From NCBI GenBank assembly GCA_903813345.2, contig CAIIXF020000006.1:25859936-25923935 (forward strand): DNA of 64,000 bases. Reading direction: 5' to 3'. The stretch's first letter is position 1, and every line of letters begins with the position of its first letter. Of the stretch, positions 11,010 to 58,452 are shown one piece after another. The notes beneath the pieces were generated by a model. It was not told the DNA's origin. It was given only the letters and a program-made list of their open reading frames with translations, and did no database searches. The translations under genes were made by a program, and so were the position numbers. Origin of the DNA: Owenia fusiformis (Eukaryota > Annelida > Polychaeta > Sabellida > Oweniidae).

Positions 11010-11054
11010 ATGTCTGCCGGATCAATCGAAATCCCACTTCGGGATACTGACGAG
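11010..11054 (+). CDS. CTR9: CTR9 exon 1 (residues 1-15)
   Basis: Encodes [15 protein letters not shown] and ends in phase 0 at a GTTTGT donor. An in-frame TTG lies five codons upstream, but the conserved N-terminus begins at this ATG. A 6.3-kb intron follows. Confidence 0.93.
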
Positions 11055-17000: not shown

Positions 17001-20000
17001 ATTTATTTGTGATTACCTTAAAGTTATTTTGTTCCTTCAACAGTCTGTGGTGGCAGTAAATCAACATTCTACTAGACTTCAAAAATTTTGAATTAAGATT
17101 GCAGCCATGTTTAGGTCTTGCGAGATCTCGTGACTTTCGAAAGTAAACATTTACTACAAAATAACTCGCATAAGCTATATAAATATGAATTCTGAAAGAT
17201 GATATTGTAGTTTTAGGATATCAACAACATATTCATGGGAGGTTAAATCTAAGAAATTTACAAAGTTGTAAATGAAATGATATAGTGGGTATTATTTTCT
17301 TTGTTCTAGGTCATAGAGCTTGACCTTGATCAGCTACCTGAAGGGGAAGAGGTCCTTGGCATCTTGAAACAAGAGACTGCACCATTACACATATGGGTCA
17401 CACTCGCTGTAAGTTAACTTTATTGCACATTAAGGTTCAACTGGAAAGTAACATTGCACATATGGGTCACACTCGCTGTAAGTTAACTTTATTGTACATT
17501 AAGGTTCAACTGGAAAGTAACATTGCACATATGGGTTACACTCGCTGTAAGTTTGCTTTATTGTACATTAAGGTTCAACTGGAAAGTAACATTACACATA
17601 TGGGTCACACTTGCTGTAAGTTAACTTTATTGTATATTAAGGTTCAACTGGAAAGTAACATTACACATATGGGTCACACTCGCTGTAAGTTAACTTTATT
17701 GTACATTAAGGTTCAACTGGAAAGTAACATTACACATATGGGTCACACTCACTGTAAATTAACTTTATTGTACATTAAGGTTCAACTGGAAAGTAACATT
17801 GCACATATGGGTCACACTTGCTGTAAGTTAACTTTATTGTATATTAAGGTTCAACTGGAAAGTAACATTACACATATGGGTCACACTTGCTGTAAGTTAA
17901 CTTTGTTGTACATTAAGGTTCAACTAGAAAGTAACATTGCACATATGGGTCACACAACTCGCTGTAAGTTAACTTTATTGTACATTAAGGTTCAACTGGA
18001 AAGTAACATTGCACATATGGGTCACACTCGCTGTAAGTTAACTTAATTGTACATTAAGGTTCAACTGGAAAGTAACATTACACATATGGGTCACACTCGC
18101 TGTAAGTTAACTTTATTGCACATTAAGGTTCAACTGAAAAGTAACATTACACATATGGGTCACACTTGCTGTAAGTTAACTTTGTTGTACATTAAGGTTC
18201 AACTGGAAAGTATCATTACACATATGGGTCACACTTGCTGTAAGTTAACTTTATTGTACAGGGTGTCAAATAAGTCTGTTCTCCCCCCTTAACTTTTTTA
18301 TCTTTGGATTTATCATACTTTCCCATATATCATTTTGAAGGTTATGGAAAATGCTGATCACCCTCAAAAAATCAATCATAAACGCCTCCTAATAAAATTG
18401 CTACAATGTTTCTTCTCAGGTTGTAGTTGACCTTTAATTACATCGAAACAAGTAAAATTACCAGGTAATAGTGATTGAAAATTGAAAATGATACTGCAGT
18501 GACAATGCCAACATTGGGTGATTTCGATGTTTCTCAATATCGTTACAGAGTAAAATGTGTTGCATTCAGGGGAGCTTTTGAAGCAGGGGCATCTTTCATC
18601 ACAAAATAGTTGATAACAGCCATAACATATGGACATAACTAAAAATACTCTAAAAAATTGGAATTTAACCAATCACTCTGAAATTTGGTGTGTGATCAGC
18701 AAATTGAATTCCCTTTAAGATGGTATATACCAACCCTATGTTATTTCTGAATTAAAAAAGTTAAGGGGGGAGAACAGACTTATTTGACGCCCTGTACATT
18801 AAGGTTCAACTGGAAAGTAACATTACACATATGGGTCACACTCGCTGTAAGTTAACTTTATTGTATATTAAGGTTCAACTGGAAAGTAACATTACACATA
18901 TGGGTCACACTCGCTGTAAGTTAACTTTATTGTACATTAAGGTTCAACTGGAAAGTAACATTGCACATATGAGTCACACGACTCGCTGTAAGTTAACTTT
19001 ATTGTACATTAAGGTTCAACTGGAAGTGGAAAGTAACATTACACATATGAGTCACACTCGCTGTAAGTTTACTTTATTGTACATTAAGGTTCAACTGGAA
19101 AGTAACATTACACATATGGGTTACACGATTCGCTGTAAGTTAACTTTATTGTACATTAAGGTTCAACTGGAAAGTAACATTACACATATGGGTCACACTC
19201 GTTGTAAGTTTACTTTATTGTACACTAAAGTTCAACTGGAAAGTAACATTACACATATGGGTCACACGATTCGCTGTAAGTTAACTTTATTGTACATTAA
19301 GGTTCAACTGGAAAGTAACATTACACATATGGGTCACACTTGCTGTAAGTTAACTTTATTGTACATTAAGGTTCAACTGGAAAGTAACATTACACATATG
19401 GGTCACACTTGCTGTAAGTTTACTTTATTGTACATTAAGGTTCAACTGGAAAGTAACATTACACATATGGGTCACACTTGCTGTAAGTTAACTTTATTGT
19501 ACATTAAGGTTCAACAGGAAAGTAACATTGCACATATGGGTCACACTCGCTGTAAGTTAACTTTATTGTACATTAAGGTTCAACTGGAAAGTAACATTGC
19601 ACATATGGGTCACACTCGCTGTAAGTTTACTTTATTGTATATTAAGGTTCAACTGGAAAGTAACATTACACATATGGGTCACACTTGCTGTAAGTTAACT
19701 TTATTGTACATTAAGGTTCAACTGGAAAGTAACATTACACATATGGGTCACACTCGCTGTAAGTTAACTTTATTGTACATTAAGGTTCAAGTGGAAGTGG
19801 AAAGTAACATTACACATATGAGTCACACTCGCTGTAAGTTTACTTTATTGTACATTAAGGTTCAAGTAGAAGTGGAAAGTAACATTACACATATGAGTCA
19901 CACTCGCTGTAAGTTTACTTTATTGTACATTAAGGTTCAACTGGAAAGTAACATTACACATATGGGTCACACTTGCTGTAAGTTAACTTTATTGTACATT

Positions 20001-23000
20001 AAGTTTAAACTGGAAAGTAACATTGCACATATGGGTCACATTGCTGTAAGTTAACTTTATTGTACATTAAGGAAACTTGTTTGATGTATCAGTTCATTGT
20101 TGACTCTTTATTGTACATAAAACATGTGTGACACGCCAGTAGTTATCAAATACCATTCATTATTGTAATTCATGACTTATTAACAACAAAATGAACTATA
20201 TGTAAAAATTCCAAAAGTCTACAAAGCCATGTACATTTCTATTAGAGCTGTTCCTTTTTCATGTATAGTATTACATACCCAGCGAAGCATTTGTATTGAA
20301 GTCAGTGGAGCTGAAGGTCGGCTATATATTCCTGTATAGCCGCCAAACCTTTTACCATGACAATCTTATGACGTCATCGGGACGTCATGTTTCATTTCTT
20401 CCTAATTTCACTCGCACACAGACACGTGGCGTCATTGATATAACGTAGCCATGATATAAAAGTATGTAATATAACAGTTATGTCCGTATCATTGAATATA
20501 TGCCTTCGGTCTGTCATAATACAACCCTCGCAAGCTCGGGCTATATTGGTGACAGACCTTAGGCATATATTCAATGATAGGGACATAACTGCTAATTATT
20601 GACCATTAGTTAATCTGACGAAACATTTAATTTTTCATCGCACTTTGAAAAAGTGCCATATTGTCGTTATCTTGTGCTGCTGGTTGGGTAGGTACTAGAA
20701 GGTGGCGTCAAAAATATCTTGTCATCAAAATGTGCCCTTAGATCTAATTAGGTTTTGAGCATGCTGCGTAAATTACATGTACGCCATTTTGCTCTTCAAA
20801 GTGCAATATTCATCACTGTATGTCTTGTTTCGATTTCAGCTTGAATATTACAAACAAGGCTTCACAGATGACTTCGCTAAGATCCTCGAGGCCTCAAGGT
20901 CAGAGTCGGAAATCTCGTACCAGGGATCGGAAAAAGATCAGATGCGAGCTATCGACACTCTGGCAGCGTACTATGTACAATGGGCCCATAGAGAGAAGAA
21001 TAAAGACAAAAAGAGGGACTTGTACACACAGGCCACTCAGCTCTATACCACAGCTGATAAGATCATCATGTACGACCAGGTAATGCAACACTAATTTATT
21101 CTCTTTATTTGAATTAACTGTCATATATGCAGGCCCGTAGCCAGGGGGGTCGCAGGGTTCGGACGAACCCCCCCTGGCCAAAAATTCTTTCAAAATCATG
21201 CAGTTTTTCACCATTTTGAGCACTTCTCAAGTGATTTTAGCCATATTTGGGCCAAAATTGTCAAATGTGAACCCCCCCTTGAAATTTTTGAAAAATGAAC
21301 CCCCCCTTGGCAAATCCTGGCTACGGGCCTGTATATGTAAAACATTTTGAAGTTTTGGCAGACTGTAGTTAAGAATAACCGGTCGAAGTAGAAAAGTAAA
21401 ACACCTGCAAAGTCCCATAATTTGTTGAGTCCTATGAGTTACATTTCCAATTTTAGAATTTGATTAACTGTAGAAGTTTCACAACATAAAATGTTTAGTT
21501 ATATGCATTTTTCAATTTTGTATCATGTTTATATTGTTGAATGTTATTTCAGAATCATTTACTTGGTCGTGCCTACTTCTGCCTCCTGGAAGGAGATAAG
21601 ATGGACCAGGCAGATGCCCAGTTCAACTTTGTCTTGAATCAGGTAATGAAAAAAACATGTCTTTATCCTCTATGCTTTGTCCCCTCTCATTGATTACTAG
21701 CCTGTGTTGGAGCAGGAGTCCATGAATATCAGTCCATTTGAACGATCATGTCAGTAACATTCATTTCATGACATAATAATTATACTGTCTGTATTTCTCA
21801 TGTTGCCTATTTCATCAAACCAGAGGGAGATATAGTCTTTATAAAGTAAATGGAGGACTTCAGTATGTTTAAAAATGAAGTGTTGGTTGAAATTGTATAA
21901 AGTTGATACTTAAAGTTAAACTTAAACTGCCACTAGACCTGAGTTTATATGAACTGTGGCAACATTCTCTTTCCATATTTAATTTCATAATGTGTAAGAT
22001 TCTAAAAATGTTGTTTAACGTAAATGTTATGTTATATAAAAGTAACTGACCATGCATACATTTTCTATTTAAATCTATATTTTTGTTTATTATAGACAAG
22101 CAGTAGTATACCTGCTTTGTTGGGTAAAGCCTGTATTGCGTTCAACAAGAAAGACTACAGAGGGGCACTTGCATACTATAAGAAAGCATTGAGAACCAAC
22201 CCCAAGTGTCCGGCTAATGTTCGTCTAGGGATGGGACATTGTTTTGTCAAGCTTGGAAAACCAGAAAAAGCAAGGTATGTCTTAGCCTGTATCAAATATG
22301 GTTGAATACTTGATAAGAGGAACTCTGCATCTTCCACTCGAAGTGGTGACATATTGTTATAGTCTCCAATTTTTATGGATCGTGTTCAGCAGTTGGTGTT
22401 TGGCGGTTGGCATCTGTAACGAATTGCAGGTCACATTTTGCATGTTAATGACTTGTACTTTCCTTTCTATTGTGAAGCTTTTGCCATCTATGCCTGATAT
22501 ACTAGCAAAAAGCTCCCCTAGGTAGTGTTAAACTAATGCTGTACCTGTATACATATTGTTCCAGGCTAGCATTTGAGCGAGCCCTAACCTTGGATCCCCA
22601 GTGTGTCGGAGCTCTGGTTGGGATGTCAATCCTTGAACTGAATGAGAAGAACCCTGAGAGTATTAAGAATGGTGTCCAACTACTGTCCAAAGCATATACG
22701 ATAGACTCTGGCAACCCTATGGTGTTAAACCATCTTGCTAATCATTTCTTCTATAAGAAGGTAAGACAATGTAGGCTTAAACATCAGGTCTGCATCCTCA
22801 TAAACTCACCTTCCATGTAAGCTCTCTTGCCTCTTAAACTCTCCTTCCTCATATACTCTCTTTCCTTATAGGTTTCCTTCCTCCTATTATGATATAAAGC
22901 CCTCTTCCTTCATAAAGTCTTCTTGCTCATAAACCTCTTTCCTCATAAATTCTCCTTCTTAACAATAATGTTTTAGGGGATTGTAAGGATTTAAGTACAA

Positions 23001-26000
23001 GTGCAAAAAGGGAAGATCAATACAAAGAGTATGATAAAACACAGTTAGAAAAAACTAAGAGCACAATGTGTGGAGAAGGCTAGCCAATTTTAAAGTTAGA
23101 TTTTATACACTTTTCTAAAGAGGGCTTTTTACAGGCACTTAATTAATATATGACTTTACATACTAGCCCATGCCTAAAATCCAAAATCTGGAAAAACCTT
23201 CAGTTATATAATTTCTGTTGGAATGTTTTAGGATTATCAAAAAGTGCAGCATTTGGCGCTACATGCCTTTCATAATACAGAGAATGAAGGAATGAGAGCA
23301 GAGAGTTGTTATCAGCTTGCTCGGGCGTTCCATGTCCAGGAGGATTACGACCAAGCTTTCCAGTATTATTACCAAGCCACTCAATTTGCCTCTTCCAACT
23401 TTATCCTTCCTCATTTTGGACTGGGGCAGATGTATGTGCACAGAGGTGATACAGAAAATGTAAGTTTAGACAAATTCAATTTAATTATCTGATTTTTTTT
23501 CAAATTTGCAAATAGTAATATGTACATATAAAGAAAGAACTGTACGTCCTCTATAACATCCCCCTGCCTCATGTTGGCCTTATGTACACAAATGTGATAC
23601 AATCTCAGACTTGTCAATTCATTTACCAACAATTTTCCAATCTCCCAATTTAGAGAATATGCGCTCGTCACATGTTTGGAGGAATGAGTTTTGTTAGACC
23701 TGCATTTGGAGGATGTATTTCTGAAGCTTTGCACCTTATTTTATTGTTCACCATTTGCCAAGAAATAAATAAAATTCTGGTTGAAAATTCAGTCTTCAGG
23801 TTAAAATCACCACATCTTAGACCAACTCAAAGTGTTCTTATAAACTGGTGTTCATATCTAGAACATAAAATAACAAAGGACTTGATAAGATCACCAGGCC
23901 ATGTTCTCATTGGTGATTTTTGCTACATTTATTAATTTACAAAACCATCATTACATTACATTACCATCATTGTTTGTAATTGTTCAATTGTTTTATTACA
24001 GGCATCTATGTGTTTTGAGAAAGTGATTAAAGCTCAACCCAACAATTATGAGACCATGAAGATATTAGGCTCGCTGTACTCCAACTCCCCTGACTTGGCC
24101 AAGAGAGAAATTGCAAAGGTATGTAGATATTTGAATATACAAATAAGTTTACAAATCAACATCAGTTTAACTATTTTATTTAAATGTACAGTAGAACCTG
24201 TGTTGGTTGAACACTTATGGGGTCACAAAAATGTGTTGACTGCATGTTGGGAATTTTATACAGAAGTCTGTGGAATCTGTGCTGAGAAGGGGTGTTCATC
24301 AGATATTGGTGTTCACTGAAGAGGTGTTCACTAAAACATGTTTAACTGTACTGTACTCATAAACAGTAATTATCTATCAGTTTCCAATTTCTGTATAGTC
24401 ACTAGGCACCTGTTGACACCTGTTGTTACACTAAAACTATGATTTTTGTATTTTCTGAGTTTTCCATGTATTTTATGAAGTTAAGATCTCCTTCCTTGGT
24501 ACTTACAAGTAGGTCACCATTGTGATCAATTGTAACCACATTGGGTGACTTAACATTGTCTTCTGGAGTCAGGAGGTATTTAATAAACTTCCCTGTTGGA
24601 TCCAACTTGTGGACCCTGTTGTTACCACAGTCAGCTATAATGATGTTATCAAGTGAGTCTGTACAGATCCCTTGTGGGCTGTCGAGTTCATTATCACCAC
24701 ATCCCATTGTGCCATAGCTAAATGCAAGCTCACCATATTTGCTGAATCCTTTGACGCTGTTGAGATCGAGATCAGATATGATCACCACGTCTTTGCTATT
24801 TGTTGTTACAAAACATGGATCTTGTATTATATCCGTACCAATCGTTGCTAGGATGGATCCATCTTTGTAGTCAATAATATACACACATTTTGCACCTCGA
24901 TCAATGACCACAAGCTCTCCTGCAGAGTTCATGCATACGTCCCATGGATCTTGAAATTTACCAATGTTTTTCAATAGTCCAAACGCTTGATTGTAAATAG
25001 CTACATAGTCTTGTTTAGAGTCGATGACCGCATAGCAATCATCTTTCAGAGTACACACTCTATCATTATCATGAAAAAATCTTGTGAATGTTTTTATTAA
25101 TGTTTTCCCGTCATTTTTATATAATGCTAATATACATTCTTCACCAAAGGAGCTTTCTAGCACTAAAATATTTTTATTATTGTTTGTTATACATATGTCT
25201 CTTATTGCAGTATATGAACTCTTTTTGTCAACTAAATGTACGGTTTTGTATATTTTAGGTGAATGTGGTATTTTGTTTTGTAAAGATGGCACTGATAGCA
25301 CCCTCACTTGCGGTTTATTGTAGCGTAAGATCGATTCTTGAGAGGTATCCAAGTACCCTGGTTCAAATATGCTCGTGTTATGAGGTTCAAAGTCATCTTC
25401 TAAATTCGAGGAACTCCAATCATGAAGTGTTTGTTTTATCTCCGTACTTGAGTTTACAATCTCAACTGGATGCCCATACTTTTTCAAGGAGGTCAGGTTC
25501 AGTAATGTAGATTCAGTGACGCTCTTTTTACATTCTATAGTATATCTTTGAGATTCTATCTGATTTATGGTTTTGTTGTGCAAACTAAACACAGCCTTTT
25601 CCAGTTTCTGAAACCAAAGAGCTATCTCAATTCTGATAGCATGATGGTCAGATCTCATACTCATTAAAAGTTTTTGAAATTTTTCTTTCTCAGTTGCGAT
25701 AACATCAGTTGAAGATTTAATCTGTTGGTCGAGAAATTCTTTTTGTGTGAAGCCCAGCTTGATTGTTGCAGAGATATTTTGCATCTCAGTGTTAGCAACT
25801 TGTTCAATTTTCACGCATTGGTGTCCAGAATGTCTGGCTATACAACATTCTCTACAAACAGGAATCTTGTCTGCCTTACAGTATAACTGAAGAGACTGGT
25901 CAGGATGCTTTGGGCAATCAATATTCCTTTTAGAGAGGCCTTCTATTATAATGCTCAGATCATTTTCAGGATTTCCAGTCAGTTCAACGAGCTCATGCGA

Positions 26001-29000
26001 TTTTGTGGATTTAATTCTGCGGTGGTATTTTTCGCATATTTTGCATAGGTTTTCAGCACATTCAATACATCTGACTACAGCATGTTCTTGTTGGTCTTCT
26101 TCCATACAGCTATCACAGTCAATCTCCTTCTGTATACGTTTTTTGGTTCTCTCAACTGTATCAACTATTGAATTCATGGGTGAGTTTGTTAAACTGTGAT
26201 ATAAACAGGCGCCTTCAACAGGAATATCCGTTTCAGTTCGTGGATTTGTCCCTTTCTTGTAATCCATTTGAGACATGGATCTTCACATTAAGTTTATACT
26301 GTATGTTCTACTGTATGACATAATACAGTATAAGTTGTTCAAAACTGTATATTCCTCATGTTAGAAATAGTTGCGTCATATTGGTTATGGCTTTTTTATT
26401 TAACCTGTTTTAATTTTTAAGAACTTAAGATTAGATTGTTGGAATGACTCATTTATAAGCCCCCTTGCCCCTTTACTTAATATCTTATCAGAGCTATACT
26501 TCAGGTTATGTAGAGGTATAATAAATTATTTGATAAATTGATTCTTGGTTGCTTTTTAACACAAAGCAAACAATTTGCATATTAAAAACAAACTTATCAT
26601 ATTTGTACTTTAAAAGTTAAAATTTAAGATAGAAAAAAGTTTAAATGGGTATCGTTTCAACTATATGGACAATCCATACATGTTATAAATATTTGGGAGT
26701 GTGACACCTAGTTGATAATACGAGGGACTACAGAACCCAGTTGTCAATTTGAGCGGATGCAGTTTTCACATGCCAATATGAGGGGCACTCAGTTTTTAAT
26801 AGAGTTGTTAAATAAAGTCTTTAAATATTTGACTACAGTGATTATTGATTTTCTTGTAGGGTCACATGAAGAAAGTTACAGAGCAGTTCCCCGATGACGT
26901 AGAAGCATGGATAGAGCTAGCTCAGATATTGGAGCAGTCTGATATACAGGGGGCACTAGGGGCATATGGTACGGCAACACGCATCCTCAAAGATAAGGTA
27001 CACGCAGATGTTCCGCCAGAGATTCTCAATAATGTGGCAGCTTTACACTTCAGGATGGGCAACTTTAAAGAAGCGAAGGTATGTGTTGTTTTCTTTAATG
27101 TGAATATTATGTCCAATGATACTTTGATCGTGCTGTGGAAAGCCAAATACAAAAGCCGCTCAGTTGAATACATGATGAAATTTTACTCTTTTCTTTGGAA
27201 CCCTCATTGAAATCATATTACTATCACTGAGATTGCACATGTAGCAGGGAAAGTACTTATCATTTATGGCGCCTAAGAAAGTGAATATGTTTGTTTCTTG
27301 CAAATGTATTTTTAAGGCGGGGGTGGAGTCCACTGTTTGTTTAAGTAAAAACATTCAAATTAACATGGATGACATAAATAGTCCTGTATGAAACGAGTCG
27401 ATGACCTAATACGTTAGTGAGTCAACACAATTAAGAGTAGAATCGTCCATTTAATTAGAGTCCATTAGCTAACAAAGGGAGGCAGATGGGATCTATTCTT
27501 CATTATATGGCTTTTTCAATAGAAATCACATCACCCATTGCCATGTATACACATTGCACAAGTTCTTTTCATTTTAAGAAATATTACGAGCAGTCATTAG
27601 AGAGAGCACGCAACGAGGCAGACCATGACGAGACCTACTACAGTGCCATCTCAGTGACGATGACGTACAATCTAGGACGTCTTTACGAGGCCCTCAATGA
27701 GTATGACAAGGCAGAGAAGCTCTACAAGAATATACTCAGAGAACATCCCAATTATGTCGACTGTAAGTTTATCTTTATTTATTTTTACTTAACACAGTCT
27801 CAGGGTATGATAAAAGAGTTCAGACCAAATGGCTCAAATTGAATTTCAAACTGGTTGCAATTTAATTTTGTCACCACCACAATTGTTACAGTCTCCAAAT
27901 TTCGGCTGTGTTTGGTGGGCAATGTTTGGCATCTGTAACAAATGGCAGGTAGTGACATTTTGCATGTCAATACATTGTTTTCTAAACTGTGTATGCCAAA
28001 ATATCAGCTTAAGTGGTCCAGATTTAAAGTTAATCTTGGTTAGCCCTTATGTCAGACCCTGCAGTCTTTTGTGTAGTTGGTTTATTCATCCATTTGTGTC
28101 TGGAAGATTGTATACTTATGCTTCATTTATCTTGTAACATACAGGATTAAATATGACTGGTATAGGTCTAAAAGGACAGCTATGTGTCAATGCAAACCTT
28201 TTATGTTTTATTTATTGATTTGATAGTCTGTATTGGAATTTCTTTAACATTATGGGTCAACTTGTTCAACCTATGGTTGAAAGCTTGTAGTCCAAGGAGT
28301 TGGGACTTTGGAAAACAATATTTGGACTCGGGTATATGGGTTGGGGATAAAAAAAATTCAATTTATTCCTAATGAATCTAGGAAAGTTGTAACATTTTTT
28401 TATGTACATTTATTTACAACTACATGTATTTACATACAAATATAAAACATTGTCACCGAGTCCTTTCTAAATTAACATGCTAAAGTAAAAATAAAAGTAA
28501 AAGTCTTCTCCAAAAATTGATTCAGTGTACAGTGAGGTTTTGAAAAAATCATGATGACAATAAAGCATGATGGCATGATGGCGTTACTGCACTGTCCTAC
28601 TACTTCAAATCTGTTTCGTTCTCAATAGCTTCATCATCAGGGTATGTCCTTCCCTTGACATGGAATTTGTCTGATTCACTGTCCTGCGGTTGTTTAATTA
28701 TGGGAGTAGTTTTTGTGTCAATTTCTTTGAGTTCAAATATAGCTGTATTGTTCATTGGTTGGTCCTGATTATTTACATGTTTGTAGGCTTTGCCTCGTTT
28801 CCTCTTGGAGCACCTCTTGTATCTAGCAATCAGAATTATGATTAGTGTCAGTATAATGGCAGACAGTACTGCAATGATAATGTACAGCTTTGTGAATCCT
28901 GAATGGCTTGAATCAGTATTTAGTTTTCCAACAGCTGGCTGAAAGGTAGTGTCAATTTCTAGCGTACTAGTCGTCGGGAGGCCTTTATGATCACTTGGTT

Positions 29001-41000: not shown

Positions 41001-44000
41001 TGACAATAAATTGATGTTATTTCAGGCCTCGTCGTGACCATAGTGGCGGGGACAGTGATGATGAAGGTGGTAGAGGACGAGACCGCAAGAGGAAACAGCG
41101 CAAAAAGAAGGAAGGTAAGACATGTTGAAAATCTTTTTTGAAATATAACATTGCAAGTTATTTTACGTGACCACCACCACCACATATTGTTATAGTCTCC
41201 ATTGTTTATTTGTTGATTCCTAATGCTTGTTTGTTGTTACGCAAAATGTTTGTTGGTTGATTTAAAATACTTATCTCTTCTTTATTTTATTATCAACTTT
41301 TATCAATTTTCATTCCAAATACTTCTTTGTTTATTTTATTCGGTTGTTGATTTTAGGAAAAGAGGGAAAAAAGAAGAAACTGAAAGAGAAATTTGTGGAG
41401 GACGATGGCCTGAGTGCTAAGCAACGTCGTAAGATTGTCTCTAAGGCCATGATCTCTAGCAGCGAGGGCTCAGACTCAGAGGGTGGCAGTAAGCTGAAGA
41501 TAGCATCAGGGTATGTATAACAATATATGGAAATCATTAAAGACACCTAACTAACAAATATGGAAATCTTTAATGACACCCAACTACCAAATATGGCAAT
41601 CTTTAATGACACCTTACTCCCAAATATTGAAATCGTCAATGACACCCAACTACCAAATATGGAAATCATTAAAGACACCTAACTAACAAATATGGAAATC
41701 TTTAATGACACCCAACTACCAAATATGGCAATCTTTAATGACACCTTAATCCCAAATATTGAAATCGTCAATGACACCCAACTACCAAATATGGTAATCA
41801 TTAATGACACCCAACTACCAAATATGGAAATTTTTAATGACACCCAACTACCAAATATGGAAATCATTAATGACACCCAACTACCAAATATGGAAATCTT
41901 TAATGACACCTAACTAACAAATATGGAAATCGTCAATGACACCCAACTACCAAATATGGAAATCATTAATGACACCCAACTACCAAATATGGAAATCTTT
42001 AATGACACCCAACTACCAAATATGGAAATCATTAATGACACCCAACTACCAAATATGGAAATCTTTAATGACACCCAACTACCAAATATTGAAATCGTCA
42101 ATGGCACCCAACTACCAAATATGGAAATCATTAATGACACACAACTACCAAATATGGAAATCTTTAATGACACCTAACTAACAAATATGGAAATCGTCAA
42201 TGACACCCAACTACCAAATATGGAAATCATTAATGACACCCAACTACCAAATATGGAAATCTTTAATGACACCCAACTACCAAATATGGAAATCATTAAT
42301 GACACCCAACTACCAAATATGGAAATCTTTAATGACACCCAACTACCAAATATGGAAATCTTTAATGACACCCAACTGCCAAATATTGAAATCGTCAATG
42401 GCACCAACTACCAAATATGGAAATCTTTAATGACACACAACTTTTCTGATGATCAAAGAGATGTTAAAAATCCCACTGATCAGGTTATTGAAAACACAGA
42501 ATTAAATCCTTTTTTGTAGACCAGAGGCCTAATTCATGAAAGCTCCCCAAGCCTGCGCAATTCCACAACTCACTGCGGTACTGCTATTTCCAATTCACAA
42601 AGGGACCGCAAAGTCGGCATCACCGCAGATGCGGTACCGCGAGAATTGCGTCATTATCGTGCGGTACCTCTGTACTTACCGCAAGTCACTCTCTGAAAAT
42701 TCAGTGTAATGAATCCTCTTGAAAAAACACTTAACATTACCTTTCAGTGATGGTAATATGTGCACGTGTAAACCTAGTATTGTCCTTTTATCAGGTTAAG
42801 TTTCCCAATAAAAAATTAAAAAAGGGAATGTGATATAGACGTTCAAATATGGATGTAAAAGCAACCTGTTCAGAGTATGTTTTTAAGATTTTTAAGGTTG
42901 CGGAACACCGCAACTTTAAGGTTAGTTTGAATGTTCGGAATTTTGCTGCAATCCTCAATAAAGTCACATGTTATTTTTCAATTAGGAATCACTCCTTCAT
43001 CACATTCATTGTCTATATTTTCAGTTTTGCACGAAAAGTGCACTAATGTAACTAGAAAAGACTGGTGAGTGCATTTGCTTCGTAAAATGCATAAAAACAA
43101 GAAAATTCAGTGACAGAAGGTTAATTACGAACATACACGACAACCTTAATATAATTATCGTCATTTTGAATATCAATAATAAGTACTCTCTGGAAGCAAT
43201 TGGAGAAACGTGAGACGTAAACATGTCTTTAGAGATCCGCCAGAGATTTTTGATGAACACGAATTACTGGAAAGATATCGTATGCATTAAATTATTATAT
43301 ATCAAAATGCATATTGATAGAATCTGCAAGAATGAAGCATCAAATAAAACGATCGCAAGCGCTTCCCTTTAATGCAGGGATATTGTTGTAATTATATTCT
43401 CGAAAATGTGAACCAACTCCCTTTAATTTCTAGAGGATACTAGATCAATTTTGCCTTTGCCTGGCTCTTCTATACTAATGCAAGGCGCTACTAAATGTTG
43501 ATGTAAAAATCGGTAAAACCCCGAGGTAAAACCATGACTTAGAAGTAAAAATTCCGGTATTATGGCCATTGTTGATAAAAAATGTGACTCCGAGGTCATG
43601 ATTTACAAGGGACACTAGAGCTAAAATGGGTCAAACTGACATTCCTGCCCTAATGAATGACACGGTCGTCATGGACACAGATTGCGGACACGGAGATTAC
43701 ATGCGGACACCTAATGGATTTGCGGATAGCTTCATGAATACCACGCAACGCAATAAAATGCGGACACACAATGGGTCCGCAAATACATTACGGACACGCA
43801 AGCTTGCGGATCTTTCATGAATTAGGCCTCTGATGTGAAAAAATCAATCAACACCAGTGGGGAGGAGACCCACGACTTCTCACTAAATACTGACTCATTA
43901 AAATTAAATTTTCTGAATCAGGCAGTTTTAGCTGAAATACACGAGGATGTGATTTTAAATGACTCCATTAGTAAATATAAAATTATGAAATTAAGATTTG

Positions 44001-47000
44001 GAGTTTAAATCACCCAAAATTTGTGTGTCAAGTTCACTGCTAATGAGTCAGAATATCAATATTTTCTTTAACAAAATTAATCGAAAGAAGGGTCCTTCCC
44101 ACTGTTGGCTTTGCTCTATAAATTATTGCGTTGGATTATTTCCTGCTAAAATGACATTTACCCTCTTTTCTTAATGGAATTAGTTTTTGGAAAATTAGGA
44201 ATTGGGTTTTTACTACTTATGGTAATGGCTAGAGATTAGATGTCATGATGGATTAACATGGCAATTAAAGAATGCCATTTTCTGTCCCGACCAATCAGAG
44301 CCTTATATGAATTTGATAAATCATGAAGAATACTGAGACACTTCAAGAGTCTTTGACAACACATCTTCAAAACACAAGGGTAAGCAAAATCAGGATCGTG
44401 TTATGAAATGAGAAAGAGTGAGGAGACTGCAAAGTCAATTCCTATTTGGTGTCATGCTCATAGGCATTTGATTTGATTTGAAAAATTTGTTCTGGGTTAA
44501 CATCAGTAATAAGACTGGTCTTATAACAATAATGATAATTCAGGCTAAAACCAGTTAAAGCTGGACTGCGCTCCGAAACGCAATCTTGGGTTGTTTCGGG
44601 GGTGAACTTTATCATTTTGAGCTTAATGAAAGATTATAGAATGATGAACAAATGGGGCAAATCTTGTGTAGAAATACTTACGATAAAGGTGTCATTTCAA
44701 ACATTTTTCATTGAATTTGCTTCGATCGGAGCCGGCGATATGATTTTGGAAAGGTTTCTAAATGAAGAACATGACGTCACTTCCGAATCATAGCATTCAA
44801 ATTAAGTAGCGTTTAATTACTTCCAATATCCATAAGTACACGGTGGTGTAGCGGTAGAATCTTCGCTTAGCACGCGGGAGGCCCGGGTTCGAATCCCGCG
44901 ATCGCCTTTTTATTTTTTTAACTAAATGATTCTTCTTTGATATTACGCAGAAAAAACAATTTTTATTTACATAAACTTTATATTAGAGCTTGAAAATGTA
45001 AAAACAATATATGTCAACATATTGCGTTTTGGAGCGATGTGCAGGTTTAATGATGAATATATAGGAATGTTTTTTCAGACTGCTTATCTATTTTTTGAGA
45101 GTTAACACAACTGATAATGGAGGGCACATTTTTGAAAACAAAATATTGTTATTTGCTTTAAGAAACCATTATTGATATTCAATAAATAGAAAAAGGGTGT
45201 TTTTATGTAGATTTTGATTTTCTAGTCAATATATTGCGATTAAGACGGATAGCCATTCATTTACAAGTTTGTGATCAGATATCGTGATTTCTGATTTTTA
45301 TGTCACCACCAAAAGTGGTGACATATTGTTATGGTCTCCGTTTTTTTGCGACGGCGTCCGGCGGTTGGTGGTTGGTGGTTGGCGTCCGGCGGTTGGCGTC
45401 TGTAACAATTTCTTACAACTTCCTATAACTTAACAAATACTGTTTAGACTGACTTCAATTTTTTTCTAAATCATCTACATGTTCTCAGAAGTTCAAATCT
45501 GACTTTAGATTTGACATTTGACCTTCAATGACCTTCTCAAGGTCAAAAAGGTCTTTTTTCAACTTGCTTCACATTGACTAAATTTTTTTTCAAAATCATC
45601 TACATGTTCTCAGAAATTCAAATCTGACTTTAGATTTGACATTTGACCTTCAAATCTGACTTTAGATTTGACATTTGACCTTCAATGACCTTCTCAAGGT
45701 CAAAAAAGGTCAAAAAGGTCTGTTTTCAACTTGCTTCAAATTGACTAAATTTTTTTTTCAAAATCATCTACGTGTTCTCAGAAATTCAAATCTGACTTAA
45801 GATTTGACATTTGACCTTCAATGACCTTCTCAAGGTCAAAAAAGGTCAAAAAGGTCTGTTTTCAACTTGCTTCAAATTGACTAAAAAAAATTTTCAAAAT
45901 CATCTACGTGTTCTCAGAAATTCAAATCTGACTTTAGATTTGACTTAAGATTTGACATTTGACCTTCAATGACCTTCTCAAAGTCAAAAAAGGTCAAAAA
46001 GGTCTTTTTTCAACTTGCTTCAAATTGACTAAATTTTTTTTTCAAAATCATCTACATGTTCTCAGAAATTCAAATCTGACTTTAGATTTGACATTTGACC
46101 TTCAATGACCTTCTCAAGGTCAAAAAGGTCTTTTTTCAACTTGCTTCACATTGACTAAAATTTTTTTCAAAATCATCTACATGTTCTCAGAAATTCAAAT
46201 TTGACTTAAGATTTGACATTTGACCTTCAAATCTGACTTTAGATTTGACATTTGACCTTCAATGACCTTCTCAAGGTCAAAAAAGGTCTGTTTTCAACTT
46301 GCTTCAAATTGACTAAATTTTTTTTTCAAAATCATCTAAGTGTTCTCAGAAATTCAAATCTGAGTTAAGATTTGACTTAAGATTTGACATTTGACCTTCA
46401 ATGACCTTCTCAAGGTCAAAAAAGGTCAAAAATGTCTGTTTTCAACTTGCTTCAAATTGACTAAATTTTTTTTTCAAAATCATCTACGTGTTCTCAGAAA
46501 TTCAAATCTGACTTAAGATTTGACATTTGACCTTCAATGACCTTCTCAAGGTCAAAAAAGGTCAAAAAGGTCTGTTTTCAACTTGCTTCAAATTGACTAA
46601 AAAAAAATTTCAAAATCATCTACATGTTCTCAGAAATTCAAATCTGACTTTAGATTTGACTTAAGATTTGACATTTGACCTTCAATGACCTTCTCAAAGT
46701 CAAAAAAGGTCAAAAAGGTCTTTTTTCAACTTGCTTCAAATTGACTAAATTTTTTTTTCACAATCATCTACATGTTCTCAGAAATTCAAATCTGACTTTA
46801 GATTTGACATTTGACCTTCAATGACCTTCTCAAGGTCAAAAAAGGTCAAAAAGGTCTGTTTTCAACTTGCTTCAAATTGACTAAATTTTTTTTTCAAAAT
46901 CATCTACGTGTTCTCAGAAATTCAAATCTGACTTAAGATTTGACATTTGACCTTCAATGACCTTCTCAAGGTCAAAAAAGGTCAAAAAGGTCTGTTTTCA

Positions 47001-50000
47001 ACTTGCTTCAAATTGACTAAATTTTTTTTTCAAAATCATCTACGTGTTCTCAGAAATTCAAATCTGACTTTAGATTTGACTTAAGATTTGACCTTCAATG
47101 ACCTTCTCAAGGTCAAAAAAGGTCAAAAAGGTCTGTTTTCAACTTGCTTCAAATTGACTAATTTTTTTTTTCAAAATCATCTACATGTTCTCAGAAATTC
47201 AAATCTGACTTTAGATTTGACATTTGACCTTTAATGACCTTCTCAAGGTCAAAAAAGGTCAAAAAGGTCTGTTTTCAACTTGCTTCAAATTGACTAAAAA
47301 ATATTTCAAAATCATCTACGTGTTCTCAGAAATTCAAATCTGACTTTAGATTTGACTTTTGACCTTCAATGACCTTCTCAAAGTCAAAAAAGGTCAAAAA
47401 GGTCTTTTTTCAACTTGCTTCAAATTGACTAATTTTTTTTTTCAAAATCATCTACATGTTCTCAGAAATTCAAATCTGACTTTAGATTTGACATTTGACC
47501 TTTAATGACCTTCTCAAGGTCAAAAAGGTCAAAAAGATTTTTTTCAAAATCATCTACATGTTCTCAGAAATTCAAATCTGACTTTAGATTTGACATTTGA
47601 CCTTTAATGACCTTCTCAAGGTCAAAAAGGTCAAAAAGATCTGTTTTCAACTTGCTTCAAATTGACCAAATTTTTTTTTCAAAATCATCTACATCTTTTC
47701 AGAAGTTCTAATTTGACTTTACAAGTTCTCAGAAATTCAAATCTGACTTAAGTTTGAACTCATAATATTGTGAGCAACTAGGTGGTGACATTTTGTCATG
47801 TTAATGCCTTGTTTTATTTAGATAACTCCTATAATGGTTGATGGATTTAGCAATTTTATAGGCTAAAAAAATAATCTTTGATAACTGTAATAACTTTGGA
47901 TGGAATTGGTTCTTATGCTGAGGCTTTAAGGTCTCAACATCTCTGCCCAAAAAGAAATGTCTCTAATGTTGAAATAACCGCCATATTTTGTAGATTTTGC
48001 CAAAAAGAGACAATACTTCTGCCTGGTCATTTTTGCAATGTAATGTACAAAATGACAAGTAATTTGGGGGAATACATTTTTGTCAATGAGATCTGCTTGT
48101 CTAGGGAATTACTGGGTTGAAATACCTTTCACAATTGACATTTCTGTTTTATAGTCAGTTAATCAACTCAGAAAGCAACATCATGATGCAATCAGTATTC
48201 TCCATACTGTGAACTCTAAATGCCTAAATCTAATGTTACAATTTAACGCCAACTCGTGTCAACAAAGAGAAAGCGATTAAGAATTAATTGAAGTCCTTTT
48301 GAGGTCATGTTACAAATGTTTCATACATGTGTTGCAAAAAAGGTTTCAGTGTTATGGCGGAAATGTGATGTAATCTCCGATTTCAATTTTCAAGTCATTG
48401 ACTGTATTGCTTTTTTGTCATATAGTATTTTGAAATATGGGATTTAAACTTTGTAGAAAGTGATGCAGGAGTGATTATTCAGCACTTAAAGGTTGTGGGA
48501 TAATTATTTGTTCACTGTTGCCTTGGAGATGTGTTAACTGCATCGAGTTAGCTAGGGACATGACAAATTGATGCCTTGGAGAAAAATAAGTGAATTCTTC
48601 CACCCGCTTCTGTGTTTATGTCTGCTGTTGAGGATTTTCTATCTGTTGAATTTGTTTTTCACACTTATCACAAATTGACTTAGATTTTGGAGAACCCATA
48701 TACAGGATGGGTTTTTCAATTGGATGGTGTCATTTTGTTTTGAAATGGTTTATCTTTAAAATGATACATAATACATGACATGGTTTAACATATTATCATA
48801 TGAATCATTCATCTTTAAACTTGGGTATTGTTTTTTGGCCCACCCTGTAGATTCAAAAATTTTGAAATTTTTAATTCACAATTTCATATACATGTATACC
48901 ATTGGTCTTCAGGCAATGTTTATTTCACAATCGTCCTAGTTGTCATGTAATTTCTCACTTAATTTTGGTTTTGTGAGTCTAATACACAAAAAGGCTAGTA
49001 TATAAGTTGTTACTGTCTTCTGTTACTAGATTGGCGAGCCATTAATGGAAAACCACCAAGGAAAATGCAAAGAGTCTACATTTAGAATATGAAATTATTC
49101 GACTAAAATTGTATGATTTGACTTTCTCCCAAATTATCACACGTTTGTGGATATGTGACTATAATAATGTCTTTGTGACCATTGATGTTGAGCTACAGTA
49201 ATAACGGTGATAACAATCTTCAATATCATGCAAAAGAGTCTAAGTTTAGAACATGGATGGGCAGTAATAGTGAATAGGGAGATATAAACACTGTAATTAA
49301 CAACAGATTATAGCTCCATGGCAATAACAAAAGTTGATGAGGTCATTCAATGAGATTATAACCCAGGGTTGCCATGGTCACCGAAAAAAAAGAAAACGAA
49401 AATTTCAGAATTTCCTTTAAATGGCTTATTTGGCAAGGTAATTTTAAGTGGTTAAAATTTTGAAAGGTGGACATTTGGACCACAAATTAATAAGGAATTT
49501 TAACCTAAATGAAAAGTTCTTCAATCCAATCCATCAGTGAATATTTGATATTATGTTGTTAAAAAAATCATTTGGCCAGAAAATTTCTAGTTTTTGTCAA
49601 CTTTTAAAATGTGTAATAATCAAAAATACATAGCTCAGACCTCGAAATTATAACAGAGAAAATGAATTTTAGTTTGATACTAGCATGATTTCACTCTTCC
49701 AATGGTTGGATGGTTCAATTAAGCTAGTAGAAATATTGGGTCATGAATAATTACTGTTGATGAAAAATTTTTTAATATATCTACTACTGAGGAATGAAAT
49801 ATTCACATTAAAAAGTTTTCGTGGCCTCACAGGAGAAGACTCATAGGCAGGTTGAAAGCACTTAAGTTCATTAAATTCTTGTTTTCATTGACACTTGCGC
49901 ATCATACTATACCATTATATTATATCATAATCAGTTTAGTAGGCGAGTTGATGTCCCAAATTCTTGTCATCACATGATTGATGTAAAATTTTTAGGAATG

Positions 50001-53000
50001 CTTTCTGGTATGTATATCTTGATTGAATTTTGGTCGTTAATGAATTCCATAAGGATGGTATATTTTACACTTTGGTTTTTGTTATTGAAGCAATAATTCC
50101 ATTATTCTTAAAATGCGCTTCAGTGCACACTCATTCAATTCTCTTATGGTAAGACCCAAGAGAGCAAAATAAATGCTCGTACATGACTTTTATCCTTTTA
50201 GTATCAAGTTAATTGTCGAGGGAATTAAGATCGAGGGTGTGATATGTCCTGTTATTTAGTGATTTCCTACGTAGTTCAGTCATAAACCCGCACAACAATA
50301 ATGCCATATTTAACTTTATTTCCGTTTCATAACCCGATTATCTCCGTTTATCACTTAATGGAGAAGTTTATCTTTCTTTAAGAGGGCCATGAATCAGATA
50401 TCAAATGTTTATATTATCAATCTTTCATAATGATTTGCAGTGTTGTGTTTGGATTATATTGGATCACAGAGTTTTGTTTTGTAAATTGATTTGAGATCTT
50501 ACCTTGGGAGAAGGATGTAGGATGGGGTACTTGGTTGGATGGTTTCTCATTAAGGGAGGCAATGGGATATTGTTGATGTAACTTTATTGTGGTGTCACAC
50601 AATGTCGAGAACAATCAAGTTGCTACAGTTTATAGCACGTGGTGACATTTTGCATGTTACTGCCTTGTATAGTTTTCTTGTCATCTGAGACAATCTATTC
50701 TATTGTTCAACTGACACCAGACATGTTTCAAAGAAAAAATTCTGACAAATAAATTGTCATTATTTGCCACGTGAGTTGGCGACCTGACGGAGTGTGAACC
50801 TCAAGATTCCCACCACTTAGAATAAGACGGGTGGCCCCCATGCTCTCGTCTACATTATTTGACACCATAGCATAATTGAATGAACAAAATCTACGAGTCT
50901 CCAGTGACAAAAATGTGCCATAATCAGTGGTAAAACTTAGGTGAAATAAACAAAAAATTCATGACATACTGGGCAGATAATCATTGGTGTTTGGAGGAAG
51001 ACTGAAGAAATACCGGATATGCAAACACTGCATATGTTGGAGTGCCAAGAAATACTGAATCAATTCTGACCATTGTTTTTTATATTTCAATCCATTCAAC
51101 ATTATCACGAGGATTTGTTTCCTCGAGCGAGGGGCAAACTCAATTTCATATTTTTTTAAGTGGGCACTCACAAGTTGATGTATGCCTTTTAAAAATCGTA
51201 AGAAGACACAACGCCTACTTGCCACAATGCCGGGGAGATCACTGCACAAAAAAAAAACATGTTTGACTTATGGTAGATCTCAATGATATACCCAGAAGGC
51301 GAGATAGTTGATAGTTGATCACTGTATTTAACACACGTTTAAGTTATATGTAGCAAGTCTTGATTTCCTGTAATCTGAGGAAAACAGGAATCATCTACTA
51401 TTGTTATTTGATTGTGTTGGAAAATCAGAATGGAAAAATATTAGAAACTGTATGTCCTCTGTATTGAGTGGTTATTATACCTTTGTAATTGGAAAGAGGT
51501 GGTGGCATTCTATCATGTTAATACCTCAATTAGATATCCCAAAATATTCTATAAAATGTCTTGTATCTTATTCAAGGAAATTTAATTCAAGGACATTTTG
51601 CCCTTATAAGATTAAAATTAAATACTTTTATCAGTGCTATTGTCCTTACGGCAGCTTGTCCACGAATTACATTTTAAATCTTCAATAATTTCACTATTTT
51701 TGATAAAATGTCATGGTTTTTATTATGGAAATTGTAATTGACATTTGATTGGAAATCATACATGTTTCTTCTAATTTTGTCACCCCTCCCCCTACCAATA
51801 GCTCTGATTCTAGATTTAAAGATATAATTATAGAGGTGAGAGAATCAAGAGAGAATACTCATTATAAGATATTAATCCAATGAATGAACCCTGTATTAAA
51901 TAAGAGTCTGACAGTGGGATTTCTAGCTATTATTACAGCATATCCTTAGTAGACCAGGGTAATGATCACTTTGTATATATAACAGGTTATAATATACAGG
52001 GTGTCAAAAAAACAACGGCACCCCCCTCTACAGCAAAAAGTCCTTAATGTTACATATCTTGGCATACCTCATTTGAAAGATAATTTCGTTCTGGAGTTAC
52101 TCATCAGATTTCATTTGATAAAACTTTATATTAAAAAAGCTACATTGTTTCAAAGTTTGCTACTTCAGTACTTTGTTTGCTGCACTGTTACTCGTTAAAG
52201 GTCAAATCTTAAGAAAGTGGAATATGAAAGAATTAGCCCAGATTTCAACTGCACTGGACATATGGGTTCAGTTCTGAAAAACAGGGTATAGGAATTGATG
52301 GACAAAGAGCCTCTTGAAAAAAGATACAGTAAGGATGTAATTCTGAAGAATGTAAGGAAAGTGTTAAGAGGATTATGCAATGCTACACCTTTATCTGAAT
52401 TTTTATTGAAATCATATCCATCCAGAGAAGCTGTTGTTCGAGCAGCAACTGGTGGTCATACCAACTACTGTAAATCTGTAAAATTATAAGATATAAAACT
52501 GAAATTTCTCAGGTAACTCCAGAATTAAATTGTCTTTAAAATGAACACAACATGTAACATTTAGTACTTTTTACTGTAGAGGGGGGGTGCCGTTGTTTTT
52601 TGACACCCTGTACAGAAGCATATAGCATGCATAATTAATTAATAACAATATTTAAAGTTCCAAATTTTATCCAATATCCTGTTTACACATTTCCAGGCAA
52701 ACCATTTCAGGTATTGATTGGAAATTTTCAGGGATGATTTTTTAAAAAATTTAGGTGTCTAAGGATAAAATCAAGATTATTAAAAATCCAAGATTTTCAC
52801 TCATAAATATTGATCAAGATTTTTATCTGAAAGTTCAATATGAATGTGTTTCTATTCTTTCAGTGATGAGAGTGGCTCTGAAGAAGGTATGGGAAAACGA
52901 AGACGTATCCTGTCCTCTGGGAGTGAAAGCGGCTCCAATAGATCACGATCAAGATCTGGCTCACGATCTGGATCTGGGTCAAGGTCACGATCAAGGTCAA

Positions 53001-56810: not shown

Positions 56811-57695
56811 TCAAGTCTGGTAACCCTCACTGGAAAGCGCAGATAGAACCGCTTTTACCAAAAGTTTGAAATTAGGTTCACTTTCAGTGTTGTTAATATC
56901 AATGTGCCTGTTTCTCTTACCAATCATCCCTCCCATATGAAGTATTGGTGGCGTGAATTGTTTTTGCTTTTGGAACCTCGACTGAATAGCGGGAAGATAG
57001 TGAAGGATAGGCATAATGGAGTTACGTTTTAGCTCGTGTTGTTGGAATGCAGAACTCAGTAGATCCTTTAAAAGTATTCGTTTTAAGTGTTCATCATTCC
57101 CCATTGGTGGTTCTGTGTTAATGGTGTCGATGCTCCCTTCTACTCTTTTCATTTGATTCGGGAACTCGACAGGTAGCCCCCAGTTGTTATCATTTTGTTT
57201 TTTATACAGACGTTCTTCCGATTCAGAGTCCATAAAATCATCAGAATACATGGAGGAATCCAGAGGATTAACCTCATTCTGTTTATTTTCAATGGTTGGT
57301 TGCATCTGGGTACGCTTGCCCATGAAGCCTGACATCTGCAACATTGGCATTCCATCGTTGCTAACGATAGACTTCGTGATCCCCTTTCGAGGACGAACTT
57401 TATGCCCGATCATGTCAATCCAAGATCGTGTAAAACGTTTCTCAATCGATCTTGCATTCATGTCTCTTTCAAAAGGATCTCCTTCATCGTTGATATCATT
57501 AGCATGTATTGAACGTGAATGTTGCTGTGTTTTCAGGTCAATTCCAATAGATTCTAATATGTTGTTGATTATTTTTAGATCATCTAGATGGTTGGTATTT
57601 CTTGTGATAGAGTGCCCTGGGGTGTCTGCACTGATGACAGTTCCAACTATACAAGCCAACCTGGCCATTGCTAGCATCAGCATTAAGCGTGGCAT
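56811..57695 (-). CDS. Neuropeptide/prohormone precursor, unassigned family
   Basis: Encodes 294 residues beginning with a hydrophobic leader (MPRLMLMLAMARLACIVGTV) typical of a signal peptide. Dibasic cleavage sites occur at about 86-87, 127-128, 165-166, 183-184, 205-206, 223-224 and 260-261. Two are preceded by Gly, the amidation donor: PMLQMSGFM-GKR (117-128) and PILHMGGMI-GKR (250-261). These align without gaps as P(M/I)L(Q/H)M(S/G)G(F/M)(M/I)-GKR, so the precursor probably yields two related amidated peptides. A further MPILHYL segment (228-234) resembles them. The start has a good CACCATG context, and the coding exon begins four bases upstream at a TTTCAG acceptor. It does not match a peptide family I can name. 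The xGxM-amide end is only loosely tachykinin-like and lacks the key Phe. Expected role: a secreted signal released by neurons or endocrine cells. Confidence 0.8.
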   Translation of the reverse strand: MPRLMLMLAMARLACIVGTVISADTPGHSITRNTNHLDDLKIINNILESIGIDLKTQQHSRSIHANDINDEGDPFERDMNARSIEKRFTRSWIDMIGHKVRPRKGITKSIVSNDGMPMLQMSGFMGKRTQMQPTIENKQNEVNPLDSSMYSDDFMDSESEERLYKKQNDNNWGLPVEFPNQMKRVEGSIDTINTEPPMGNDEHLKRILLKDLLSSAFQQHELKRNSIMPILHYLPAIQSRFQKQKQFTPPILHMGGMIGKRNRHIDINNTESEPNFKLLVKAVLSALSSEGYQT

Positions 57696-57702
57696 GGTGC
57701 TG

Positions 57703-58452
57703 AAACATAATGGTACACTATTTAACCAAGAAAAGATATAATTCTGACTCAGATTATATGGTTGGTAGTTATTTTAAAGTACATCAAGATAATCGTTGAT
57801 ATTTTTTATCGCGCTGTAAGGATCACGCTTAATTGTTGACTCTATCATGTCATTAATTAATTCAGTGAAGTCCTTTAACCGACTCAAAATGTGTGGAGGA
57901 TTCCACTATTTAAAGGATCATCTCAATTGAAATTATCATAACACAACAAATAATTAGAAAGAGATTAAAATTTGACAATTAAAGGATGAACCATTCAGAT
58001 GACAGTCAGTCTAAAATAAGTAAAAAAAGCCCAGTACAACAAATCAAAAACTTATCGAGGATCATGGTTAGAAAATACAAATTAAATTGTTTATTCCCTC
58101 CTCTCTTTTAGCCTTGATTAATATCTGGTCTCTTTATATTATACTGCAAAATGCCGCGAAATCGAATCATTGCTGTATGTAGTGAAGACCTACCAACAGT
58201 GAACATTTTTTCTCGGCAAAAAATATTCACTATACACAGGTTTTACTGTAGAAAATTTTATCAATTTTATTATTTTGTTTTTCTAATAACTAAAGTTTTA
58301 TTAATTCAGTGTTAAATTTCTGAATGTGAAAAGCCTTAAACATATTAAAAAACATGAATTTAAATTTTTTATCATTTTAAAGATTGGAATAAATCTAAAA
58401 ATTATATTTGTCATACATATAATACACTTTCTCTAAACTTAATAAAATAACT
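57703..58452 (-). other. First intron of the prohormone gene
   Basis: Non-coding AT-rich sequence between the putative 5' exon and the coding exon. No repeats or frames of note are seen. Confidence 0.45.

Follow-up and report, generated by a model that had tools for sequence, protein, structure and literature searches.

A splice donor and a transposon end repeated together in a 69-bp tandem array at the exon 2 boundary of Owenia fusiformis CTR9

The window analysed here, a stretch of 64,000 nucleotides from the annelid Owenia fusiformis (G000:C6:25859936-25923935), carries the gene CTR9 on its + strand, and all genome searches reported below were made in the single 498-Mb assembly (G000) from which it comes. 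The coding part of exon 1 (11010..11054, + strand) was recognized by translation of its open reading frame (ORF); its 15 residues, which we take to be similar to the N-terminus of human CTR9, precede the donor GAG/GTTTGT. Exon 2 (17310..17408, + strand) comprises 99 nt or 33 codons, and intron 2 (17409-20839, + strand; 3,431 nt) separates it from exon 3 (20840..21079, + strand), whose acceptor TTTCAG lies at 20834-20839. Reading frame and protein collinearity identify the GTAAGT at 17409..17414 (+ strand) as the authentic exon 2 donor. When exons 2 and 3 are joined at this first donor, the translated peptide is collinear with human CTR9 and aligns without gaps to its residues 16-128 (113 residues; PDB 5zyq_A, E 2.2e-46). 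A genome search for a processed CTR9 copy, which would have revealed a splice junction, matched only the two genomic exons. Further downstream, a Ser/Arg/Gly-rich open frame at 52844-53299 is built of short coding repeats and is probably a C-terminal exon of CTR9.

The boundary between exon 2 and intron 2 is occupied by a tandem array of 31 units of 69 bp (17383..20070, + strand), whose units were located by 31 matches to the anchor CACATATG. Tandem Repeats Finder reports it as two 69-bp arrays, at 17383-18260 and 18793-20072, on either side of an inserted transposon described below. The first 26 nt of the array belong to exon 2, and the TTAA at 20067-20070 closes it. The initial annotation had recognized the gene, the exon-intron boundary and the copying of the donor from within exon 2 in an array of 31 units of 69 bp, all of which our anchor search and alignment confirm, although it had drawn the limits of the array at 17393 and 20078. 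Of the 31 units, 24 measure 69 nt (counting unit 13 with its transposon removed) and six are longer, at 72-78 nt (units 9, 16, 18, 20, 27 and 28), while unit 31 lacks 1 nt and ends early at its TTAA. The 24 units of 69 nt differ pairwise by 4.7% on average.

The donor hexamer GTAAGT is retained in 30 of the 31 units, including the true site, leaving 29 intact decoys and one weakened decoy in unit 6 (GTAAAT, 17754..17759, + strand), the sole damaged hexamer. Base composition predicts 1.2 occurrences of GTAAGT in intron 2, and the window outside the array contains only 10 in 61,310 nt, so the row of donors is not a product of chance. A query of two units yielded 18 genome matches, of which 17 fall in the CTR9 array and the other is a 33-bp piece on contig C9, a result that speaks against a dispersed satellite lying here by accident. 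Nor can the exon-like part of the unit be derived from elsewhere, as unit 1 codes for conserved CTR9 residues. An open frame spans much of the array, which is the ordinary outcome of repeating a 69-nt unit that has no stop in one frame.

The 33-bp match on C9 led to a dispersed, TTAA-flanked miniature inverted-repeat transposable element (MITE) of about 400 bp, one end of which is present in every complete unit of the array and had escaped the initial annotation. Each complete unit consists of 26 nt from the end of exon 2, 21 nt of intron, TTAA, and 18 nt of MITE tip. The tetranucleotide CATT is common to the end of the tip and to the exon 2 part, giving a 4-nt overlap at the junction. Genome matches and the alignment of MITE copies place the unit 1 segment, which consists of TTAA and 22 nt of the MITE end, at 17430..17455 (+ strand); it recurs in units 2-30 with few substitutions and with 6 extra nt in units 16, 27 and 28. 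Compared with 19 MITE flanks, the 21 intron nt before TTAA show no resemblance to any (9 of 21 positions alike at best) and hence represent local intron. The interior that follows the tip in the MITE itself (TTGGTAAAAAATTGC...) is absent from the units. From the donor of the last unit to its TTAA (20046..20070, + strand), the sequence represents a clean ‘empty’ target site, with GGAAACTTG next and no MITE; only 9 of the 37 nt after this TTAA match the element.

The tip 22-mer, GGTTCAACTGGAAAGTAACATT, has 1,165 matches in the genome at two or fewer mismatches (598 forward and 567 reverse), against none on either strand for its reversed control. The number of elements is smaller than the number of matches, because the latter include the array copies and because the other MITE end, which differs at two positions, can also match. 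The G version of the tip, which is the commoner one, is matched exactly at 486 places (229 and 257 on the two strands). We fetched 21 MITE copies (L009-L029), comprising the C9 copy and 20 others. Of the 20 copies readable on the left, 19 have TTAA there (L028 has TCTA, and L026 is cut at the match), and TTAA is also the right flank in all 19 copies with a recognized right end, which excludes L019 and L028. The element is 401-404 bp long, except in L016 (370 bp), and its ends form inverted repeats, GGTTCA(A/G)CTGG... and GGTACAGCTGG.... One host flank is common to nine of the 21 copies (L010, L012-L017, L021 and L023), so the sample represents about 13 separate contexts rather than 21 independent insertions, and the MITE is probably nested in another dispersed repeat that has spread it through the genome. 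No second array of the tip was found, in that the matches listed contain no same-strand pair within 600 bp outside CTR9 (about 100 places in each of two partly overlapping listings were covered). At G000:C1:57355307-57355370, two MITE tips stand back to back in opposite orientation, with 20 nt between them.

Two features of this MITE agree with the Kolobok pattern, which combines a TTAA target with purine-purine termini (PMC6004289). These are the TTAA target-site duplication documented by the flanks above and the GG with which both ends begin, read inward (GGTTCA..., GGTACA...). The element does not share the narrower AG start of the listed Xenopus elements. We also considered piggyBac as the source of the tip, and at up to 6 mismatches in 26 positions the tip occurred in none of 12 fetched piggyBac transposase loci (from 113 PF13843 matches), each extending about 1.5 kb beyond the match, flanks short enough to make this negative weak evidence. 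The piggyBac source thus found no support in these loci, and the GG ends would seem to suit the Kolobok rule better, without amounting to proof.

A second transposon interrupts the array in unit 13. It is a 536-bp TA-flanked inverted-repeat MITE (18259..18794, + strand), recognized by its near-identical inverted ends of about 40 bp and its TA duplication; once it is removed, unit 13 returns to 69 nt. The TA target site is of the Tc1/mariner type. At least 157 matching pieces of the element occur elsewhere in the genome (40 of 226 candidates were scored), the best other copy scored being 91% identical over the full 538-nt query and others 92-95% over about 367 nt. The initial annotation had missed this element too. 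Both an AATAAA (18391) and an ATTAAA (18751) lie within it, and the former was brought into intron 2 of CTR9 by this MITE.

These observations are best explained by an intronic minisatellite that arose, with the assistance of a transposon, where exon and intron meet. In the proposed sequence of events, a TTAA-targeting MITE of about 400 bp would have inserted at the TTAA that forms positions 22-25 of intron 2. A tandem duplication running from exon 2 (CATTACAC...) to 22 nt into the MITE, as suggested by the 4-nt CATT overlap, would then have created the first repeat, and its amplification would have led to the present 31 copies of a unit that joins the exon end and its donor to the start of the intron and the MITE tip. 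The full MITE behind the last unit would later have been lost down to a single TTAA, which would explain the clean target site found where the array stops. The TA-flanked MITE is a second arrival, now found in unit 13.

One observation tells against this order of events. The TTAAGG of the empty site is also the sequence of the MITE border, which means that the same junction could have arisen by a template switch, with no insertion at all: a repair polymerase would have left the locus at TTAAGG, copied 18 nt of a distant MITE and rejoined exon 2 at CATT, giving the first duplicate. The 6-nt match on one side and the shared CATT on the other are in keeping with such a switch, and the clean end of the array would then need no excision. 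However, a template switch could have used any part of the 400-bp MITE or its flanks, whereas a border exactly at TTAA is expected of insertion and would otherwise be a coincidence, which makes the switch less likely. Moreover, the 486 exact matches to the G form and the TTAA flanks of nearly all fetched copies indicate that insertion into TTAA sites has been common in this genome. We therefore regard the template switch as a tentative alternative with perhaps a modest chance of being correct, and in our judgement insertion followed by loss is the probable order.

The true donor and all 29 intact decoys share the same predicted energy of pairing with the U1 tail, -5.4 kcal/mol, compared with -1.6 kcal/mol for unit 6. 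The initial annotation had described 30 decoys of near-identical strength with GTAAGT in every unit; equal pairing holds for 29 of them, and unit 6 departs from the description in both sequence and energy. Its further claim, that use of any decoy would retain a TAA stop, agrees with splicing in silico: all 30 downstream donors, when joined to exon 3, lead to a stop at the same codon (VIELD...TLAVS*) after 35 residues of the exon 2 frame, while the first donor gives an open frame. Substitution patterns provide no sign that the decoys are under selection. The 31 aligned units hold 58 substitutions over 69 columns, one of them in the six donor columns, and among 64 six-column windows, 10 have as few substitutions as the donor and 19 have as few variable columns. 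The donor hexamers are neither clearly conserved nor clearly decayed, as expected of passengers.

We expect, by analogy with intron 7 of human F7, that the first donor is the one normally used and that the decoys are mostly silent. The F7 donor lies in a row of 37-bp repeats, a layout similar to that in CTR9, and according to a review only the most upstream donor is used under normal conditions (PMC6627357). A +5 mutation of the intron 7 donor leads there to exon skipping and to the use of downstream intronic cryptic sites (PMC6627357, section 4.4). In CTR9, the first donor would likewise be favoured because it defines a normal exon of 99 nt and is met first. The 29 intact decoys would then be mostly silent passengers, and any leaked use would generate mRNA with an early stop that is expected to be degraded. 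Taken together, the MITE-tip make-up of the unit and the use of the first donor form a joint claim that we consider likely.

Several points weigh against first-donor use. Work in vitro by Reed and Maniatis and by Eperon and others reportedly found that when equal donors lie close together the acceptor-proximal one can prevail, an outcome that would benefit the decoys. Ten of the 269 GT dinucleotides in intron 2 pair with U1 more strongly than -5.4 kcal/mol. The strongest five, at -6.1 or below, comprise three within the TA-flanked MITE and two past the end of the array, so that pairing by itself does not determine which donor is used. The exon 2 donor is also tied as the weakest of the predicted CTR9 donors, with those at 23460, 27763 and 35514. 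This set comprises 16 donors predicted from ORF tails, with U1 pairing from -5.4 to -10.1; in tails containing two GTs the one fitting a donor was chosen, and a seventeenth tail, RDKDKVK, was excluded for lack of a credible donor. Finally, local RNA folding failed to separate the true donor (predicted chance of being unpaired 0.05) from the decoys (0.001-0.33).

If the decoys did compete, the array might act as a length-dependent dial, as the initial annotation had proposed: the share of stop-bearing mRNA would rise with copy number and so set CTR9 output. The 29 decoys that equal the true site in U1 pairing are compatible with this proposal, as is the arrangement of the 30 downstream donors, which share one early stop that lies, by arithmetic, at least 60 nt upstream of the new junction. 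There is also a precedent in the intronic variable number tandem repeat of ABCA7, in which repeat length is correlated with both splicing and expression (PMC5954066). However, the F7 precedent points to the first donor, the decoys carry no sign of selective retention or removal, and use of the last decoy would require an exon of about 2.7 kb. In addition, the evidence comes from a single array in a single assembly, with no length variation to be seen. The dial thus finds no support here, and we judge it improbable. The corresponding conclusion, that the array tunes CTR9 through a copy-number-dependent fraction of transcripts that is decoy-spliced and destroyed, is if anything slightly more doubtful; were it correct, a transposon-seeded minisatellite would determine the amount of CTR9, which is one of the core subunits of the Paf1 transcription complex.

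A different role for the row of U1 sites, unrelated to splicing, would be to guard the intron against premature cleavage and polyadenylation (telescripting), for instance at the AATAAA at 18391. The 30 GTAAGT sites do flank this signal and the ATTAAA at 18751, but both signals belong to the TA-flanked MITE and neither occurs within the units themselves, so array growth was not driven by the shielding of its own units. With neither U1 occupancy nor selection indicated, this role seems highly unlikely. Least credible is an assembly artefact in copy number, since although array length was read from one assembly, the units differ from one another, neighbours share variants, a MITE is embedded among them, and an array of less than 3 kb in a contig of 40.8 Mb is within the reach of long reads.

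Four other features of the window were observed. Within CTR9, on the opposite strand, an uninterrupted ORF of 618 aa (24426-26282, - strand) appears by eye to encode a B-box/NHL (TRIM-like) protein and is possibly a nested or retrocopied gene. Another ORF, of 320 aa (56811-57773, - strand), contains ...FMGKR and ...MIGKR motifs and by eye looks like the precursor of a neuropeptide, with sites for amidation and dibasic cleavage. A 33-bp array of about 28 copies (41525-42442) is partly open in one frame as 11-residue repeats, and a higher-order tandem array with periods of 136 and 284 bp occupies 45657-47547.

The CTR9 array constitutes a natural splicing construct with 31 donors in a conserved gene, its copies presumably exceeding the known F7 count. 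It would be suited to distinguishing, outside mammals, whether the first donor wins or the donor nearest the acceptor wins. It is also a readable record of the birth of a minisatellite, in which a transposon tip beside a splice site was duplicated along with coding sequence. A literature search turned up no description of the CTR9 array and none of a comparably long row of donors, which is not proof of absence.

Parts of this arrangement have counterparts elsewhere. Among Xenopus elements, the T2-MITE/Kolobok group resembles the MITE of the CTR9 array in its TTAA target and purine-purine termini, and the repeat family Xstir arose from such a MITE (PMC6004289). However, the source of Xstir lies in the interior of the MITE Xmix, whereas the CTR9 array repeats a terminal tip joined to a host exon, and the full-length Xenopus elements listed there start with AG instead of GG (PMC6004289). 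The ABCA7 repeat is likewise intronic, but the abstract of that study reports skipping of exon 19 and makes no mention of copied donors (PMC5954066). Minisatellites at exon-intron boundaries of human segmental-duplication genes can give rise to alternative splicing and new introns; these average four copies of 30-bp units and are retained in or spliced from exons, in contrast to a long intronic row of donors (PMC2812944).

The closest relative is the F7 intron 7 kind of array, which begins at or inside an exon end and copies the donor in its units, as the CTR9 array does. The 37-bp F7 repeat is, we assume, the variable tandem repeat called HVR4. Its alleles are named H5-H7, and if these names count repeats its copy number would be small; the meta-analysis that covers them found only a marginal relation to coronary disease and concluded a lack of association, with no direct bearing on splicing (PMC3166910). 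The CTR9 array differs in its 69-bp unit and 31 copies and in the transposon tip and TTAA of each complete unit. For the F7 repeat, donor use has been assayed in the work that the review summarizes (PMC6627357). The CTR9 array is a large new relative of the known F7-type, donor-copying boundary minisatellite, to which it adds an origin involving a transposon tip.

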